Source of the DNA: Filosporella fistucella
Taxonomy: Eukaryota; Ascomycota; Leotiomycetes; Helotiales
Direction: 5' to 3'
DNA length: 64,000 nucleotides
NCBI GenBank assembly: GCA_030077755.1
Contig: JAQJZZ010000018.1
Coordinates: 2,418,001-2,482,000, forward strand
In this document: in pieces, positions 47,632-64,000 of the stretch
How the letters are laid out: each line of letters opens with the position of its first letter
Position numbering within the stretch: position 1 is the stretch's first letter
The notes under the pieces: generated by a model
Databases searched by the model: none
What the model saw: only the letters and a program-made list of their open reading frames with translations
Told to the model about the DNA's origin: nothing
Position numbers and translations under genes: made by a program

Positions 47632-49196
47632 ATGTGTCACGCAAGTAGTCCTATTATTTCAAGGGAGGCTCCTCCTGTTCCTAAGAGAATTGTTGTTTGT
47701 TGCGATGGTACATGGCAATCAGCGACTTCGTTGGACCCCACAAAAGGCGTTTCTTCGAATGTGACTCGATTATCGCGAGTGTTAGCAAAAGCTGGTTTGG
47801 ATAAAGACAACAAGGTGTGGCAACAAGTGGTATACTACGATGCGGGTGTTGGTACTGGAGATATTACAGATTTCGAACAAAAAAGACAAGGTATGCTCCA
47901 TGAAAGTTTACCCGCGAAGTTTGCTAACCAGTCATAGGTGGGCTCGGCATAGGACTCGCTGAAAACGTGATCGAAGCATACAACTTTATATGCAACAATT
48001 ACAGCCCAGGCGACGAGCTCTTCTTCTTTGGTTTCTCACGAGGAGCATATACCGTCCGCGCAGCAGCAGGCCTAGTAGCTGACCTTGGAGTTCTCAAACC
48101 AGCCGTTCTTCCAACATTCATAAAACACTACAACGACTGGACACACACCGAGAACGAGCGTCAAAACCTCTTCAAGGATTTCAAAGCCTGGACTGAGTTC
48201 ACCAAAGAGAGTCCGGATTACTTCACTGATGTCAGAGAAAATGTCACAATTCAAGTGGTCGGCGTTTGGGACACAGTTGGTAGTCTAGGCATACCCGATA
48301 TTGGACATGTGTGGACGATCCACAAAGCAGACCGAAAGGCCTATCAATTCTATAATACCGACCTGAGCGACAGCATCAAGCACGCCTTCCACGCCCTTGC
48401 TCTCGATGAGCGCCGCCCAGCTTTCTCGCCTTCGCTATGGAAACTCAAGCCCAACAACACAACAACTAAACTGGTGCAATGTTGGTTCCCAGGCGCACAT
48501 ATCAATGTTGGAGGCGGCTCGCACGCTTCCACTTCCCCAGACTTGAGAGACGAGCAATTAGCATCGATAGCCTATGCCTGGATGCTCGATCGCGTTCGTC
48601 CTTACCTCGCATTCAGCGCCAAAGCACTCGAAGAACAATTCGCTCCTTTCGACCACCTAGCTGATCTCATTACGCCACAAACACCTGTCTCACCAACCAA
48701 GATGCTTTGGGAGGGAGTCAAGAGAAGAACATTCCATACAGGCTATGCGAAAGGGAAAATTAGCGATAGTTTCACTTTCATGTACTGGCTCATGGGGAAC
48801 CCAGAGGACCGAACACCAGGCCAATACGCCGATTCCAAGAATGGCGAGCGCACAAACGAGCGAATCCATCCTTCAGTTCACTACAGACAACTATCCAACG
48901 AGCGACACAAGGAAGAAATTTACGTTCCTGCAGCGATGCGCGGCTGGGTCCGGGAGTTTGAGAAGAATGGCGTTGATGAGCAGGGGAGAGATTGTCAGGG
49001 CTGGATGTGGAGGAAATATAAGACAGAGGGAGAGAAAAAGGTTGTGGAACAGCAATTGTGGGAATTTGAGATTGGACATATGGAGGTCCAGGATAGTTTG
49101 GAGCAGAGGCTTATTCAGAATTCGTGGGTGGAGAGTATTCATAAGGAAGTGATGGCAGGATGGAACAAGGAGGCGGATATTTTGACGCATGGATAG
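47632..49196 (+). CDS. DUF2235 alpha/beta hydrolase (Tle1-like lipase domain)
   Basis: Exons 47632-47890 and 47938-49196 (intron 47 nt) give 505 aa. Motifs: RIVVCCDGTWQSA at the N-terminus, DELFFFGFSRGAYTVRAAAG with the nucleophile Ser in GFSRG, VVGVWDTVGSLGIP (Asp), HAFHALALDERR, and CWFPGAHINVGGG (His). This is the PF09994 domain, which in bacteria includes type VI phospholipase effectors and in fungi a large uncharacterised group. There is no signal peptide, so it is cytosolic. The likely activity is ester hydrolysis; the substrate is unknown. The intron splits the QG|GLGIGLAENV strand at a place common in this family. Confidence 0.9.
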
Positions 49197-55689: not shown

Positions 55690-56110
55690 CCTCTCTCTAG
55701 CCCTGAATACTAAGAGGGCTTATCAAGTTCGCAAGATTCTGGCTTATAAGCATTATAGTCCGGCTTTGTATGGAAGGAAAAATAGTAGCCGATGTAAGTT
55801 CAGGATAGCTGAAACCGATATTAGAAGGGATATAACAAAGTCATTCTTTCAACAACCCCTCGCTGCGGAAGGCATAAGGAATGCCACAATTACAATCGCC
55901 CATCGTGACCTTGAGAGCCTCACAATAGCAACTATAGGTCTCGCCACAACTCCCGCCTTTTTTCAGGCTGGTATGGAACGATTGTTCAAGCCATATCTCT
56001 GGGCCTTCGTGTTGGTCTACATAGACGACATGGTTATCTTTTCTAAGTCTCTGCCGGAGTATGTTCAATAACTCAGGAATACGTAGAATAGTCATCTGTA
56101 GGTAAACTCC
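55690..56110 (+). mobile_element. Ty3/gypsy-type reverse transcriptase relic
   Basis: A short frame (open 55766-56071) contains ATIGLATTPAFFQAGMERLF followed by KPYLWAFVLVYIDDMVIFSK. These match the palm of Ty3-type reverse transcriptases, including the YIDD active site. The upstream frame (about 55700) continues with sequence like LNTKRAYQVRKI. Flanks have many stops and high AT. I found no LTRs, integrase or RNase H, so only a fragment survives, probably eroded by mutation. Confidence 0.8.
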
Positions 56111-56585: not shown

Positions 56586-56600
56586 CAGGTCGGCGACCTG
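56586..56600. promoter_or_regulatory. Palindromic element CAGGTCGGCGACCTG
   Basis: A perfect odd palindrome (centre G at 56593), about 140 bp upstream of the mitochondrial carrier ATG. The core GGTCGGCGAC recurs upstream of the sulfate permease and the sulfide oxidoreductase. Confidence 0.65.
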
Positions 56601-56735
56601 TTTGCCGTGTGGCCTGAGATCTCTCGGTAAAATCTAGGAACTCGGTACGACGACCCCCAAAAATGTCTTTACTCTAATTCAAATAATTGAGATAAAGTGA
56701 AGTGTGCACAGAATGCTACTTTCCAAATTGACATC

Positions 56736-57773
56736 ATGAGCGGCTCAGCATACTCCATGCCTCCCAATACCAAATACCCATTTTGGTTCGGTGGTAGCGC
56801 AGCATGTATGGCTACTTGTGTTACACATCCTCTGGAACTTGGTTCGTTAAAGCTCTTCCTCATTGCCCCTGTACTAATTCATATGCTTCTAGTTAAGGTA
56901 ATCATTCACATACTCCGGATTCTCTTCCACTCAAGAAAGCAAATAAATTGATGAAAACATCCAGGTCCGCTTACAAACAAGTATCCATGGCTCACCCAAG
57001 ACAATGACAGGTACTTTCTTCAGAATCGTCCACACAACCGGCTTCCGAAGTCTATACAATGGCATCTCAGCTTCTCTCCTCCGCCAAATCACATACTCAA
57101 CCGTCCGTTTCGGAATATACGAAGATCTAAAGCAAAGGTCAGGTTCAGACCCAAGTGCCGCATTCTTGGCTGCCATCGCGGCCTCCTCGGGCTTCATAGG
57201 AGGCTTGGCTGGCAACGTCGCCGACGTGGTGAATGTACGTATGCAGAACGATACGGCTTTACCCGAGGCTCAGCGGAGAAATTATAAACATGCCATCGAT
57301 GGAATTATATGCCTTACCAAAGAAGAAGGGTTCCGGGGTTGGTTCAAGGGGTGGTTACCTAATAGTAGTAGGGCAGCTGTTACTACTGTTGCTCAGTTGG
57401 CGAGTTATGATGTTGTGAAGAGGTTTTTGATCAGGAATACGGGGATGGAAGATGAGGTGCCAACGCAGATACTTGCCTCGTGTATGGCTGGGGCGATGGC
57501 TGCAACAGTGGCGAGCCCGATGGATGTTATCAAGACGAAGGTGATGATGTCGACAGGCAATCAAGGGTTGCTGAAGATATTACGGGAGGTCATTCGGACT
57601 GGTGGAGCTACTTGGATGTTCCAAGGATGGGTTCCGAGCTTCTTGCGTCAAGGACCGTAAGTTACTACTTTTCTCTGCCGTGTATCTAGTTTGGTAATAC
57701 TGACTCAAACAGACATACTGTTTGTATTTTCTTCTTCTTGGAGATGCAAAGGAAGATTTACAGACAACTTTGA
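56736..57773 (+). CDS. Mitochondrial dicarboxylate carrier (SLC25 family)
   Basis: Exons 56736-56841, 56893-56897 (5 nt), 56965-57656 and 57713-57773 total 864 nt (287 aa). The five-base exon TTAAG is required to restore HPLELVKVRLQT, the first carrier signature. The second repeat has GNVADVVNVRMQND and the third SPMDVIKTKVM, so all three signatures of a six-helix carrier are present. The C-terminus ends PHTVCIFFFLEMQRKIYRQL, as in DIC proteins. DIC carriers exchange malate or succinate for phosphate, sulfate or thiosulfate across the inner membrane. With a sulfide oxidoreductase and a sulfate permease next door, sulfate/thiosulfate exchange is the likely reason for its position. It converges with the permease, 84 bp apart. 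Confidence 0.9.
56893..56897 (+). other. 5-nt microexon of the carrier gene
   Basis: TTAAG between a 51-nt intron (gttcgt...actaat...ttctag) and a 67-nt intron (gtaatc...atccag). It completes a Val codon and adds Lys, giving the invariant HPLELVK order. Without it the frame breaks. Confidence 0.7.
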
Positions 57774-57857
57774 GAATTTGGTATAATGAGTTGAACTTCT
57801 GTATATACTTGTACTTGTACAAAAAATAGTCTCGTCCCCTCACTATAAAGCATCAGT

Positions 57858-60575
57858 TTATTCCTCATCTTTTCCTCCTTCATTCACTGTCTGCCTCGCT
57901 CTTTCCAGTAACAAATCCTCCCTTATAGCGTCTCTGACTGCGGTGTCCACAGCATCTGGCAGGTCGATGTGAAAGAATGGCCTATCAATCCCATATACAG
58001 GCTCTAAACCTCTTCCCTCGCTTGCTTCTCCCATACTGCTGCTATGAATTTCATGTTCTACCTCATCTTTCTTATGACTGTCCACTTTTTCACCGTTTTC
58101 CTCAGCTCTCGCAGTAGTCATTTCTTCTTTGCCCGTCCTACTCTCTTCATCCTTTTCCTCAACTTCTCTCTTTCTCGCACCCGCCATCCTCTTATCACTT
58201 TCTGTAGCTCCTGCCAGTGAACTTGCCACTGAATAAGCTGGGCACCACTTTCCAGGGCCATCTCCTCCCGCTGACAGTGAGGGCCGCCCAAACCCTACAA
58301 CCGCCAACGCTCGACGTGTCCACTTGTTGTCCAGCCCCGAGAAATGCCACTCTACGACCGAAGGCGCGACATAGCGGTCTAGAGTGTTGCGAAGGTCAAC
58401 GAGGGATTGGATAGCTGTAATATCGAGATGATTGAGAGTAGCGCAATCTAGAATAATGGCGCGGAGAAGTGGTTTCTTGCTGGATGCTTTGGAAGAGGCG
58501 ATTGTGGATACAGGATCCGACCACAGACGATCCTGGATGGAACATCGTTAGAGATATTTTTTTCTCGATTTGTATTAGAGATTCTACAGTACCTTTGCAG
58601 GGATATGATGGTCAACTGTTGTTCGTCGTGTGTGCTCCGTGATGTAGGACAGCATGTGATCCACATGACGAGCTGCATTAACATAATTCAATGCTTCATC
58701 GAATCTGTAGAGGAAGATACCGGGATATGGCGTGAGGACTTCAATTCTTGGGTTTGAGTTGTCTTTCTTGTCTATAGGAAGATAAACTTCCCTAACTATG
58801 CCCTCTGCTTCGTTTGGGGGACTTGGGATATCTGAGGTGAAAGTCTTGCCACCGTCACTTGACACTGTCTCTTTATCGTCTTCTTCCTCGTTGTGGACTA
58901 CTCTTTTCACTCTAATCTGCCCCAGGAACACACCATGTGGTCGCGCCATGCGGACCAACAATAGGGCAAATGACAGCGCAATGGTGGTATAGATACTCAT
59001 CTCGAGAGATACAAACAACCCCACCATAACACCGACAACCCAGATCAAAAGTTCCGCTGGAGATAGCTGCCAGTACTTGTACAAAGCAGAGGGTGGTGTC
59101 ATTAAATTGCTCACCGCATGGATGATCAACCCCGCTAACGCCGCCTTGGGAATATAGTAAAACACTGCCGTCAAAGCATACAGTGCAAGAATCAGAATAA
59201 GTGCACTGAAAAGACCTGCGAGTGGTGTTCGCACTCCAGCTTTTGTCAGTACGGCTGACGCGCCGAACGATCCTGTGCAGGCGTAACCTCCCAGAAGTGT
59301 TCCGACAGCATTCGAGACGCCTTGAGCCAGTATCTCTTGTGATGGGATGACGGTATATCCGTACCGCCTGCCAAAAGACTTGGCGATTGCGATGTGCTCT
59401 ATGATTAGTATGATGATGATGGCTGGGAGCTGTGGCAAAACCAGTTTGATGAGCTCGGTGTCCAAAGAAGGCGGCCCTGCATGCTTGAAGCCTGATTCGA
59501 TTTTACCAACAAGTTTGAACTTCCAGTATTGCTTTTCATGGGGGATCGTTCGATGAACGAGCCAACTGATGAATGTGTAGAGGAGGATGGTGAAGGTAAG
59601 TCGGAGAGAGGAAATAGTTGCCCATAACTTTTTCCTCGTCGGTTGACGGACTTCGAACTTTGCACAAACCTCTCTGATCACGTACAAAAGAAGTATCGAG
59701 GTCAGGCCAATAGTAGCATCAAGTTGCGTGTCGGAGAGCTTCTTGAGCGTATCTATATAGACAAGATACGGCGCCTGTCGTGTGTTGATTCCTTGAATGC
59801 CAAGAGCAACAGGGAATTGGGTGCCAATGATGGTGATACTGGCTGATGTCACGAATGCGGAAATTGGGATGTATGGTATCAGTTCGATGATCCAACCGAG
59901 GCGAAAGAGACCAAGAAAGATGAGGATGATTCCTGACATGAAAGTAATGCATTTCGCTATGTCTTCCGAGGAATATACCCCAGGATAGTCTTTCTGAATG
60001 GAGACTATCACGCCACCGATCAGGAGTGACCCAACAGCTGTCGTCTAAGGTTTGTGTGAGCTTTAAGGTTGTTGGTAAAACGAAGGTGATTCAGTTACCC
60101 CAATGACGATATCTTTGGACGTTCCAAAAAGCCAATATATGGCGGCTCCTGTGAAAGAAGTGTACAGTCCATATTCTGGCCCCAATTCAGCAAGAATGGC
60201 ATATGCCATTGCCTGAGGAACAACAACAAATCCAACAGTCAGGCCTGAAAAGTATTAGTGATGACGAATTTTGCGGAAATGATCTTATTGAGATCCTCTC
60301 TCACCTGCGATACTATCTCCCAGCAGCCATGTCAAGTTATACCGCGGGATCCAAGTTGTAAAAGGGAAAATGTTTCTGATGTATTTGGCTGTACCATCTC
60401 GTGTGGGTCTCATACCCAAAAGCCATTGTTTGATCGAAGGTTCTTCCTCAACATATACAGCGACAGTAGCAGATTTTGCATCTTTTTCCAGTGATGCCTT
60501 CTCTTTCAATCCTTCGTCTGGGTTCACGTGAAAGACTTTCCGTCGGACAGTCGTTGTAAGCTTGTGGAGAACCAT
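57858..60575 (-). CDS. SulP-family sulfate permease with STAS domain
   Basis: Exons 60575-60305, 60244-60099, 60044-58593 and 58532-57858 sum to 2544 nt (847 aa). The hydrophilic N-tail is followed by the conserved start of the transport domain (NLTWLLGDSIAGLTVGFVVV; PQAMAYAILAELGPEYGLYT). About 10-12 helices follow, with SFGRRYGYTVIPSQEILAQG and GGYACTGSFGASAVLTKAG typical of sulfate permeases. The C-terminal STAS domain begins near residue 570 (GIFLYRFDEALNYVNA) and continues with AIILDCATLNHLDITAIQSL. A charged, disordered insertion lies inside or after it (bases ~58000-58250). It should transport sulfate at the plasma membrane. A GGTCGGCGACC element lies about 200 bp upstream of the ATG. 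Confidence 0.93.
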
Positions 60576-61238
60576 GAGGAGCGGGTAAATGTGTTTTGAA
60601 TATTACACGCGAGGATGAAAGTGAACTTTAATATAACTATCGCGGAAGGAACTGAAGTATATTCCCCAAAATGGACTTGGATCATTCTGGATAGCATATA
60701 TGTATATTCCTTATAGATGTTGTTCCCGATGGTCGAGCAAGTTACAACATGTCATATCCACCCGGGAAGGTTGGTCGGCGACCTGTTGCCACTAGAGCGG
60801 CCACCACTTCATCCCGGCGAACTTTGACGGGCAGGTGCAAAATTACTGACAGATTCCAGAAAATTTTTATTGGTGTTTATTGTAGTCCATTCAACGGTTT
60901 TGGAGATTAGCAATCAGCGAAAGCCAAAACCAAGTATTTTCAACCAGAGAATATACTTAACTTTTCATTGGACTGTAAATTTTTGCTATCTATATATTTC
61001 CCCCGAATTCCTGAAATGGCCCCTTTCTCTTTTCTATCAAGTATTGAAAGACATTGCTTATGAAATGCATGCCCTTGGTATTGTATAATACAAACAAATG
61101 ATACAGCTTAGTTATATGGCTCTCGGAAACGGGCCATCACCCCTACGAACCACGAACCATCCCAAGAATTGGAAGAAAGTGAACCTTTTCAGGCATGCAC
61201 GACCCATTGGGACAAAATTATGCACCAGATACAACATC
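60576..61238. other. Intergenic, permease promoter
   Basis: Between the permease start and the 3' end of the sulfide oxidoreductase gene. It holds the palindrome at 60773-60783. No gene. Confidence 0.5.
60773..60783. promoter_or_regulatory. GGTCGGCGACC element upstream of the sulfate permease
   Basis: Identical over 11 bp to the element in front of the carrier. The next bases also match (TGTTGCC versus TGTTTGCC). It lies about 198 bp before the permease ATG. Confidence 0.65.
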
Positions 61239-62726
61239 TCATCTGATGAAACCCTTTGGTCCTCCCCAAGTCCCTTTCACCATATATTTACTGTACACCC
61301 ATGGAAAGAAATCTTTCTTCAGGTGATAGAATGCCCTGCGAGGAACTGTTTGGTCGATCCCAAACCAGTTGTTGAATGTCTCTTTCGGCACTCCACCATA
61401 CTTGAACTCAGCGAGAAGGACCTTTCCATACTCTGTGAGGAGTGGGCACGAGGTATAACCATCATAAGCCGGCTCTGGTTCTTTGCCCTCCAACGATAAG
61501 CTGAGGTTGCGCACTAAGACTGGTGCTTGCGAAGTGATGGCTGCCACAGTCTTGGATGTTGGCAAGCTCGAAGCATCACCAGCAGACCAAACATTGTGAT
61601 ATTTGGTGTGTCGGAGGGTTGCAGGATCTACGTCGACGAATCCAGCTTCGTTTGCCAGAGCACTTTCCTTAACAAAAGTATAAGGCCGGTTTTTTGGTGC
61701 GACATGCAGAAAGTCAAATTGTCTTGTGACCTGCTCTTTCCCACCTGGACGAGCAAAAGTGGCTGTATTGCCATCAACAGCGATAAGATCGTGCTCGAAC
61801 AAGCCTTCAACACCCCTCTCGATGCGAAGTTCTTCGAGTTTAGCACTGTATTTCGGTACACCGAACATTGTAGGTAAGCCGGTAGCGAAAGTAATTTTGA
61901 CGGCGGAATCTGAGGGTTTGCTGATATTGTACAGGCCTGCTTGCTTCCAGTAATCCAATGCCAACCACTAGAATACCACCAGTCAGAATTTTGATATAAA
62001 TACCTGGGATGATAATACAATAACGCATAATGAAGATAGGGTAAGTCTGACGAGCGAAAATAGAAGAAACTGATTTTATCTATTCTCACTTACCATGATT
62101 TTCTGTGGTGCACCAGCACACTTGACAACACCTGCTGGCTGAGTGAAAAGAGCGTTGCCACCCTGGAACTTCTTGATTTCGCGGAAAACCTTGTCACAAT
62201 ATCTATAGTCGTAAATGGAAGACACTGGAGAATCCGGATTGTCGATAAGCTCTGGCAACCCTTTGACAGATGCATAGTCAACTTTGATGCCGGGTACAAC
62301 CACAAGGTGCTCGTAATTGATCTTGTCACCATTGCTGAGTGTGACAAAGTTGTTTTCTGGGGAGAAGGAGCGAACTCCAAAATTGTAAAACTGAAGTTTG
62401 GGGTCGATCAAGCTGTCAAGTGGTTCTCGTAAACTCTCCTTCGTCTTCAGTCCTCCACCAACCAAAGTCCAGCCAGGCTGATAATTATGCCATTGTGAAG
62501 GATCCACAACAGCAATTTCGTGATCAGCAAATTTGCCTTGTCGGACGAGCTGATGGCTGATGGAAAGACCCGCTGCTCCTCCACCGACAACCACCACCTT
62601 GTGGTTTCGATCAACGGTATTTACTGGCGATACTGTTGCCATCCCTCTCAGTACCTGAAATCTCCGTGCTCTAGCTCCTGAACGTCCAGCAGCAGCAGCT
62701 AAGGACAGGACCCGGGTACGTTGCAT
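61239..62726 (-). CDS. Mitochondrial sulfide:quinone oxidoreductase (HMT2-like)
   Basis: Exons 62726-62094 and 61967-61239 (intron 126 nt) give 453 aa. The start MQRTRVLSLAAAAG, rich in Arg and Ala, is a mitochondrial presequence; this ATG is preferred over the open frame upstream. KVVVVGGGAAGLSI (GGGAAG at 48-53) is the FAD-binding fold. DPSQWHNYQPGWTLVGGG and TQPAGVVKCAGAPQKIM contain the first redox Cys (203). YDGYTSCPLLTEYGK contains the second (Cys385). The spacing matches eukaryotic SQR, including human SQOR. NVWSAGDASSLPTSKT is the second FAD motif, and C-terminal hydrophobic helices contact the membrane. It oxidises sulfide to persulfide and passes electrons to ubiquinone. Confidence 0.93.
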
Positions 62727-62905
62727 GTTGCCAATAGAGATGAGAAGAAGAGGGGCCGCGAGAACGTGAAGAAAGGAAATGGATATAATGTAAATAGAGA
62801 GGAAAATGTCACAAATTCGACGATGAAAAGAATTACCCCATGTTTCATGCACAAAAGTGGAACCGCAAACATTTTCCCCGATAACGCGTGAGAATTTCTG
62901 ATCTA

Positions 62906-62915
62906 GTCGCCGACC
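62906..62915 (-). promoter_or_regulatory. GGTCGGCGAC element upstream of the sulfide oxidoreductase
   Basis: Ten-base match on the minus strand, the same strand as the gene, about 180 bp before its ATG. The last palindrome base differs (T for C). Confidence 0.6.
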
Positions 62916-63258
62916 GGCCTGCAAGGATAGAGGTTATCATGAAAAGAAACGGCGGTCTACGGATACTTCGACAAAATCTTTGAGAATCATATGTTTCTCG
63001 GGTCCACACGGAGACACCAACCATGCAATAATGAAGTATGAAGCTGCGAATGTAGGGGACATAGATTGAGAGCAGGACCCTGTTACCCGTTTAAGCGTTG
63101 GAGCAACGGCGGGGTGGCTAGCAAGGTATATTTCCGTACCAGGGAGTGAATGGCGCTGGGTTTGCAAGCAGAATTGAGCCAATTTGAGTTGGATAATATT
63201 AGTCTTTTACGAAGTGTGCTGGATACAAAAGAAGGAGTGCGGTGGAGGGCTAGATCGT

Positions 63259-63268
63259 GGTCGGCGTC
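63259..63268 (+). promoter_or_regulatory. Near match GGTCGGCGTC
   Basis: 9 of 10 bases match the element. It lies about 490 bp before the ATG of the presequence gene and about 530 bp from the oxidoreductase ATG. Confidence 0.3.
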
Positions 63269-63754
63269 GGCTCAACGGTTATGCATGCAGGGGTAGCTAC
63301 CGCGAACCGGGGAACAAAATCATGGTTGACGACCAGTCGTAAACCTTCAAACATCAACATCCTACGGCACTGTGTGCTCTAGGCACGACATCAGATGGTG
63401 CGACAAGAACGGAAATATATTCCAGGTCACACCACATTTGCACAGCTGAAGATCAAAACCTCGGCATCTTAAGACTTACGTAGTCTTGTATCGAGATCCG
63501 GGAGATATATGCAACACAGTCGCCGTACCTTACGCCGATCAACTTCTGCACTTCGCCGAGCACGAAAAGACTCGGGTTTCGTCCTCTCTCATTCACATCA
63601 TGAGTGTTTGCTTCACAAGGTAATGTAATGTGCTAGGTGCCCAAGGGTATAGGTAGTGTAGTTTTCTGATTGCCTTCGTATTCCCCTCTTCTCCTATCTA
63701 CCTGTTCCATCCATTTATCCCCTTGACCATCCAATTTCTTTACCTCATAACACA

Positions 63755-64000
63755 ATGCAAGCCACCCAGTTTCACATCAGTAGCAGAGGGCAGACAAGTG
63801 TCCGTCTTCTCTTGCGGTCTAGCAGAACCACTTCAACTCTCGCAACAAGATCTTCAAGTCGGGCAATCCATTCAGCTTCTTTTCGCCAGGAACTCGAGCA
63901 CCAACCTACATGTCCTCTGCGAACTTCAAAAGATGCCTCTACTACCACAGCCTCCACGAGCAAGCTTCTGCAAAGGCGCGACAGACCTGCCAATCACACT
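63755..64000 (+). CDS. Gene start with mitochondrial presequence (3' partial)
   Basis: The frame runs from the ATG at 63755 to the window end: 82 codons without a stop. The first ~47 residues lack any acidic residue and are rich in Arg and Ser (QTSVRLLLRSSRTTSTLATR). They end in RAIHSASF, which resembles a matrix-protease cleavage site. The following part (QELEHQPTCPLRTSKDAS) is not diagnostic. The product should enter mitochondria, but its function cannot be read here. Next to the sulfide oxidoreductase and with a near copy of the shared element, a persulfide-handling enzyme such as a dioxygenase or sulfurtransferase is a guess only. Confidence 0.65.
   Translation, partial: MQATQFHISSRGQTSVRLLLRSSRTTSTLATRSSSRAIHSASFRQELEHQPTCPLRTSKDASTTTASTSKLLQRRDRPANHT

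Follow-up and report, generated by a model that had tools for sequence, protein, structure and literature searches.

Gene content of the locus

The window analysed here, a stretch of 64,000 nucleotides from the helotialean fungus Filosporella fistucella (contig C16:2418001-2482000 of a 45.77-Mb assembly in 19 contigs), carries at its right end a cluster of four genes whose predicted products cover the conversion of sulfide to persulfide and of persulfide to sulfite, together with two anion transporters. In the spliced gene models, the cluster reads from left to right as a mitochondrial carrier of the dicarboxylate carrier type (DIC, forward strand), a SulP permease (reverse strand), a sulfide:quinone oxidoreductase (SQR, reverse strand) and a persulfide dioxygenase (PDO, forward strand). 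The DIC and SulP genes are convergent and the SQR and PDO genes divergent, the latter two being separated by an intergenic region of 1,028 bp (62727..63754) that forms a candidate bidirectional promoter, in keeping with the adjacency of both genes in relatives as read from locus tags.

The SQR gene (61239..62726, - strand, intron at 62093-61968) encodes 453 residues, of which residues 41-451 align with human mitochondrial SQOR (structure 6mp5, E 2.5e-88). Both redox cysteines, already reported in a first-pass annotation made from the letters of the window without database searches, are indeed present, since the stretches VKCAGAPQKIM and YDGYTSCP align to SQOR without gap; they presumably correspond to the residues numbered 201 and 379 in SQOR. 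A search of the whole genome gave no other SQR match at E <= 0.001. A presequence recognised by eye suggests a mitochondrial location.

The fourth gene, suspected as a member of the cluster by the first-pass annotation, runs over the end of the window, with its 5' part at 63755..64000 (+ strand) and its end 994 bases further, at 64994 in window numbering. The sequence read beyond 64 kb identifies its 395-residue product, a protein of the metallo-beta-lactamase (MBL) fold, as a probable persulfide dioxygenase of the bacterial PDO2/Blh kind rather than of the ETHE1 kind. Indeed, its best matches among solved structures range from E 5e-75 to 6e-64 and include 9g8t (E 5e-75), 4efz and 4ysk (E 4e-67), the last of which we take to be the persulfide dioxygenase PpPDO2, whereas human ETHE1 (4chl) is matched at only E 3e-13, compared to 5e-75 for the best bacterial relative. 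The metal-ligand motifs THxHADH, HLPGHTPD and GDSIF..D were found by direct reading, and the corresponding columns are invariant among 12 aligned PDO relatives, an alignment made with the paralog PDO2b described below but without the cluster PDO itself. The NCBIfam Blh model NF040641 is matched at E 1e-87 with 294.8 bits, below its cut-off of 625; the match spans model positions 138-421 of 423, which is the dioxygenase part, and the DUF442 sulfurtransferase part is unmatched. About 100 basic and serine-rich residues precede the conserved domain and were read by eye as a likely mitochondrial presequence. The nearest SQR and PDO proteins are those of Phialocephala subalpina (Leotiomycetes, Helotiales), with 83% and 67% identity, respectively.

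Two transporters complete the cluster. The carrier (56736..57773, + strand, 287 residues, SLC25A10-like) matches Mito_carr in three repeats (E 1.6e-57), and many of its protein matches bear the name mitochondrial dicarboxylate carrier or transporter. Members of the DIC family (SLC25A10/Dic1) transport malate, phosphate, sulfate or thiosulfate. Its gene has introns at 56842-56892, 56898-56964 and 57657-57712, and between the first two lies a microexon of 5 nt (56893-56897) that is required for the conserved LELVKVRLQ frame. The permease gene (57858..60575, - strand, introns at 60304-60245, 60098-60045 and 58592-58533) encodes 847 residues with both domains expected of a SulP permease, Sulfate_transp (E 5.4e-101) and STAS (E 2.8e-6).

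Linkage in other fungi and the clade of the cluster carrier

Linkage of SQR, PDO and DIC in other fungi was tallied by hand from the locus tags and matching contig sizes printed with the protein matches. Among the 14 named species present in both best-120 lists (PDO and SQR), nine have the two genes on the same contig, namely Phialocephala subalpina, Coleophoma crateriformis, Phlyctema vagabunda, Aspergillus alliaceus, A. hancockii, Paecilomyces variotii, Fusarium zealandicum, Lasiosphaeria miniovina and Neocucurbitaria sp. Locus tags are consecutive in four of these (A. hancockii BBP40_001554/001555, P. variotii DTO212C5_4546/4545, F. zealandicum FZEAL_1923/1924 and Neocucurbitaria Nn.00g039110/039100); a shared contig is weaker evidence than adjacency where contigs are multi-megabase, as in Lasiosphaeria. 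With the pair of the window itself, the nine species thus extend the SQR-PDO linkage over Leotiomycetes, Eurotiomycetes, Sordariomycetes and Dothideomycetes. Against a general linkage, five of the 14 species show no shared SQR-PDO contig (Diplodia seriata, Colletotrichum higginsianum, Xylogone sp., Aspergillus avenaceus and Macrophomina phaseolina), some of these rows coming from differing strains or assemblies.

In the carrier tree, the cluster DIC belongs to a clade of its own, split from the housekeeping DICs, including that of the same genome, with a support of 100/98, and it is hence no ortholog of the housekeeping carrier. Each of the four testable relatives in this clade is encoded on the same contig as the PDO or the SQR of its species, and Cladophialophora bantiana has consecutive tags (10157/10158); two of the eight housekeeping DICs testable in the tree lie on such contigs, both longer than 5 Mb. 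A methionine that is invariant in 22 housekeeping rows (out of 34) is replaced by threonine in eight and by glutamine in two of 10 cluster-clade rows (out of 11, Acidomyces being omitted). By this tally, the linkage of SQR with PDO, and of DIC with one or the other, is kept in relatives.

A palindromic element shared by three promoters

The 10-mer GGTCGGCGAC occurs in three exact copies in the window, at 56588(+), 60773(+) and 62906(-), which lie 137, 197 and 178 bp before the ATG of DIC, SulP and SQR, respectively, in good agreement with the 140-200 bp given by the first-pass annotation. The DIC and SulP copies (56588..56598, + strand, and 60773..60783, - strand) both read GGTCGGCGACC over 11 positions and have a 15-nt identical stretch in common, GGTCGGCGACCTGTT. 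They had been described as full palindromes with matching flanks; the flanks do match, but the element is of odd length and its centre is unpaired, the DIC site having the symmetry AACAGGTCG-G-CGACCTGTT over 18 of 19 positions, with the centre alone breaking it. The SQR copy, GGTCGGCGACT (62905..62915, - strand), lies within the SQR-PDO divergent intergenic region. A copy matching at nine of 10 positions had also been claimed for the fourth gene; it is present as GGTCGGCGTCG (63259..63269, + strand) but is weak, with nine of 11 positions over the full element and 485 bp to the PDO ATG, and it is probably not significant.

The rough expectation of about 0.1 copies per 64 kb proposed earlier was about right, as 42 copies of the 10-mer were counted in the whole 45.77-Mb genome, or 0.06 per 64 kb, so that about 0.006 would be expected in the 6.3-kb cluster stretch; the 11-mer occurs 12 times. 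With at most one mismatch, nine matches were counted in the window compared to a mean of 1.48 in shuffled sequences, none of 100 shuffles reaching nine, near-palindromic sites being counted on both strands in this tally. A 10-mer of any sequence common to the three 500-bp promoters arose in 18 of 20,000 dinucleotide shuffles; random triples taken from the rest of the window gave one in 35 of at most 20,000 cases. Since we estimate that a window holds perhaps a few tens of neighbouring gene triples, such sharing (about 0.1-0.2% of triples) is suggestive and not decisive.

A second locus on contig C10

The genome encodes one close paralog of the cluster PDO, with 57% identity, on contig C10 (PDO2b, without long presequence), and a further, weak match (39% over 58 residues, E 3.6e-4). 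At this locus (G000:C10:145244-148010), the PDO2b gene diverges from that of a 340-residue YeeE/YedE protein (C10:147249), the first 208 residues of which match Sulf_transp (E 5.8e-14) and DUF6691 (E 2e-9), while a Sulf_transp structure from the TsuA family of thiosulfate transporters, 6leo, aligns over residues 9-327 (E 5e-6). This neighbour is thus a putative TsuA/YeeE-like thiosulfate-transporter gene.

The 804-bp region between the two start codons contains AGTCGGCGACC, a 10/11 match to the element, at distances of 497 bp to the ATG of PDO2b and 296 bp to that of YeeE. The locus was reached through paralogy. With the relaxed pattern RGTCGSCGACY, which has 41 sites in the genome, the Poisson probability of a site in this promoter is 7e-4 before correction. 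The effective chance is nearer 4e-3, because the pattern was fixed after the C10 and SQR sites had been seen and four other paralog loci (L055, L059, L060, L062) were also scanned, none of which held a match equal to the C10 copy. We regard the C10 copy as an independent hint, stronger than the promoter-triple statistic.

Distribution of the element across the genome

The gene cluster could be real and the element incidental, having arisen as a repeat by chance or serving promoters in general, with no role in sulfide control, an explanation to which we grant a sizeable, though minority, probability. Several observations weigh on its side and against a dedicated regulatory site. The motif drew attention through its very repetition. 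PDO lacks a good copy in its own promoter, and its ATG is 839 bp away from the SQR copy. The relaxed pattern is not enriched genome-wide, with 41 places compared to 105 for the backward pattern, which is possibly akin to common coding words and is a poor null. Of these 41 sites, 21 were read (four at sulfide genes, the 10 other exact 11-mers, two on C1, two on C7 and those at L018, L023 and L035); 17 lie away from sulfide genes, and seven of the 17 fall in open reading frames (ORFs) of coding-like composition. No rhodanese, SLAC1 or sulfite-oxidase match was found within 30 kb of any listed site; among the sulfur-gene matches compared (eight rhodanese, two YeeE, 10 SLAC1, of which some are fragments of a single gene, and three of the sulfite-oxidase type), only the YeeE gene at C10:147249 is near a site. 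Among the 21 sites read, the element thus does not predict sulfur genes genome-wide. The first-pass annotation had expected it to be uncommon in the genome and biased to promoters: it is rare, but five of the 10 other exact 11-mers lie inside ORFs of coding-like composition. On the other side, only 18 of the 20,000 shuffles gave any 10-mer common to the three promoters, and an independent copy stands at the only other close PDO locus, where it was met by paralogy.

Two relaxed sites, C1:1777430 and C1:1778114, lie 684 bp apart in long ORFs, seemingly of one Spt16-like gene (identity by eye), so close pairs of the element also arise in coding sequence, which again tells against a regulatory role. 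The ORFs flanking the other exact sites were mostly judged by eye and not with Pfam. One exact copy (G000:C18:129301, L011:5003-6754) precedes by about 1.3 kb an exon resembling GPR1/FUN34/YaaH acetate transporters (Pfam 5.9e-15) that looks unrelated to sulfide, as do a multicopper oxidase near the L035 copy and a pectate-lyase-like ORF, recognised by eye, near the L072 copy. A selenium-binding protein beside the L023 site was considered and dropped, the single exon tested giving no Pfam match.

Alternatively, the cluster might serve sulfur nutrition, with SulP importing sulfate, DIC trading dicarboxylates, starvation control by CYS-3/MetR, and sulfide oxidation as a secondary function. SulP does belong to the sulfate permease family, and a raised SQR transcript is reported for the Aspergillus nidulans sconB mutant (PMC7589619). 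We nevertheless find this explanation unlikely, as SQR and PDO oxidise sulfide and do not assimilate it, and the element is unlike the published CYS-3 motif ATBRCGCCATC (PMC8550094). The upstream regions scanned, 664-700 bp for each of the four genes, contain no CYS-3/MetR core TGRYRYCA, which is weak evidence because, by our estimate, about 0.7 would be expected by chance; one such core, seen by eye, overlaps the DIC start codon just beyond the scanned stretch.

Bacterial parallels and origin

Bacterial genomes scanned with the fungal PDO alone gave nothing, and an alignment-based scan gave at least 587 confirmed PDO stretches, of which the best 80 (43-48% identity, nearly all proteobacterial by record title) were taken with flanks of at most 6 kb (both complete in 69 of them) and searched with the fungal SQR, YeeE and SulP. 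SQR was found in 23 of these loci, SulP in 29 and YeeE in 16, whereas PDO stood alone in 37. SQR and SulP occurred together in 14 of the 80, in 13 cases within 700 bp, and common gene orders among these were PDO-SQR-SulP (seven loci) and PDO-YeeE-SQR-SulP (five loci; proteobacterial runs L074, L080, L086, L088 and L091). In 15 loci checked, SulP matches numbered 1-8 per genome (some being pieces of one gene) in 2.3-6.4 Mb, so that 1-2% of the 12.8-kb loci would contain SulP by chance; the bacterial loci are kin to each other and not independent. The pairing of YeeE with SulP suggests a paired uptake and efflux of sulfur oxyanions. That PDO, SQR and SulP are linked in bacteria as well as in this fungus speaks for SulP as a working part of sulfide oxidation and not a bystander.

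In its best stretches, the cluster SulP shares 45-48% identity with two more SulPs that this fungus encodes, compared to 24-33% for 28 of the 29 SulPs beside bacterial PDOs, the remaining one reaching 40% over 67 residues. A further SulP gene lies about 35 kb past the cluster (G000:C16:2513706-2516252; 38-59% identity in separate stretches). A PDO tree was built from 25 of 120 fungal matches, 20 of 80 bacterial loci and both PDOs of the genome. In it, the fungal sequences make up one clade separate from the bacterial sequences, a single long-branched chytrid excepted (99/93, the bootstrap being not fully settled), and the C10 paralog branches off first within this clade. PDO appears from this tree to be an old fungal gene of bacterial type, and SulP seems to have joined such clusters independently in fungi and bacteria. 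Mitochondrial carriers are eukaryotic. The acquisition of a ready-made bacterial operon, which the same neighbours in the same order PDO-SQR-SulP in proteobacteria and the bacterial-type family of PDO might recall, is thereby very improbable and was set aside for SulP and DIC, given a SulP nearer to the fungus's own, the separate fungal PDO clade, the introns of the cluster genes and the eukaryotic nature of the carrier. A search for the locus in viral contigs gave nothing.

Outside the cluster, a reverse-transcriptase-like reading was seen by eye upstream of DIC (56000-56070), with YIDDMVIF, which we take to be a reverse-transcriptase motif, and a stop soon after; a decayed retroelement remnant may thus border the cluster there. 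Further left, the ORF at 47967-49193 encodes a Tle1-like phospholipase catalytic domain (Pfam T6SS_Tle1-like_cat, E 1.1e-62).

Proposed pathway and its regulation

We propose that SQR, in the inner mitochondrial membrane, would oxidise H2S, pass the electrons to ubiquinone and make persulfide, as is established for its family. PDO, presumably brought into the matrix by its N-terminal extension, would convert glutathione persulfide to sulfite, which would then react to thiosulfate; this chemistry, from sulfide through persulfide and sulfite to thiosulfate, is established and has been reviewed (PMC9774590). The cluster DIC may carry sulfite, thiosulfate or sulfate out of the matrix while taking phosphate or dicarboxylate in, and SulP may move a sulfur oxyanion across the plasma membrane or another membrane. 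A transcription factor binding RGTCGSCGACY near -140 to -200 could switch on DIC, SulP and SQR, the divergent PDO probably being switched on together with SQR, and the same factor might act on the second locus, that of PDO2b and the TsuA/YeeE-like transporter on C10.

The first-pass annotation had proposed a sulfide-oxidation unit under one regulator. The unit is well supported by the gene identities, the fourth gene that completes the pathway, the linkage in relatives and the bacterial parallels. A shared regulator acting through the palindrome is plausible but unproven; it is backed by the clustering of the sites and by the C10 copy, and no such factor was identified. As a whole, the account of a helotialean sulfide-oxidation cluster with a DIC exporter, SulP and an RGTCGSCGACY-binding factor acting at both loci appears to us probable. 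Its most specific form, a dedicated fungal cluster with a neofunctionalised DIC exporting thiosulfate or sulfite, an undescribed sulfide-responsive factor at both loci and a SulP clustering that arose separately in fungi and bacteria, is put forward tentatively, its chances being perhaps somewhat below even.

Comparison with known systems

For sulfide oxidation in fungal mitochondria, the locus identifies the enzymes and offers candidates for an exporter and for a regulatory site. Like the first-pass annotation, which knew of no such cluster, we found no description of it in fungi in the open-licence PMC literature. Animal mitochondria oxidise sulfide through SQOR, ETHE1, TST and SUOX, with SLC25A10 as an anion carrier. 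The fungal cluster resembles this pathway by its mitochondrial-type SQR with both redox cysteines, its persulfide dioxygenase and its DIC-type carrier, but it differs in that the dioxygenase is of the PDO2/Blh kind and not ETHE1, the genes stand together in a cluster, the carrier is a paralog distinct from the housekeeping DIC and none of the four genes encodes a rhodanese.

A 2020 paper notes a lack of data on how fungal mitochondria detoxify sulfide and puts forward AstA of Aspergillus nidulans as the missing sulfite and thiosulfate exporter (PMC7589619). The exporter role is the point of likeness; AstA is, in that text, an alternative sulfate transporter, whereas the candidate here is a DIC-clade carrier encoded beside SQR and PDO (PMC7589619). 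The cluster DIC is a rival candidate to AstA. According to a 2026 preprint, Schizosaccharomyces pombe has no persulfide dioxygenase (PMC13082054), which makes that yeast an SQR model without the complete pathway.

Among bacteria, the bigR operon of Xylella and Agrobacterium similarly joins a sulfur transporter to a sulfur dioxygenase of the Blh type (PMC5823870), and may be compared with PDO2b and its YeeE/TsuA-like neighbour on C10. However, no DUF442 sulfurtransferase domain is fused here, and the transporter of the operon is a TauE-related sulfite transporter (PMC5823870). A similar arrangement is that of the mto clusters of Methylophaga thiooxydans, where pdo, sqrB and sulP are already described as neighbours (PMC6548844). 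The fungal cluster shares these PDO, SQR and SulP neighbours but differs by its introns, its divergent transcription, the added mitochondrial carrier and a SulP nearer to the fungus's own SulPs. Both the pathway and the gene arrangement are thus known, and the fungal locus is a novel form of them, in which the sulfide-burning genes of a filamentous fungus stand side by side much as they do in bacterial operons.

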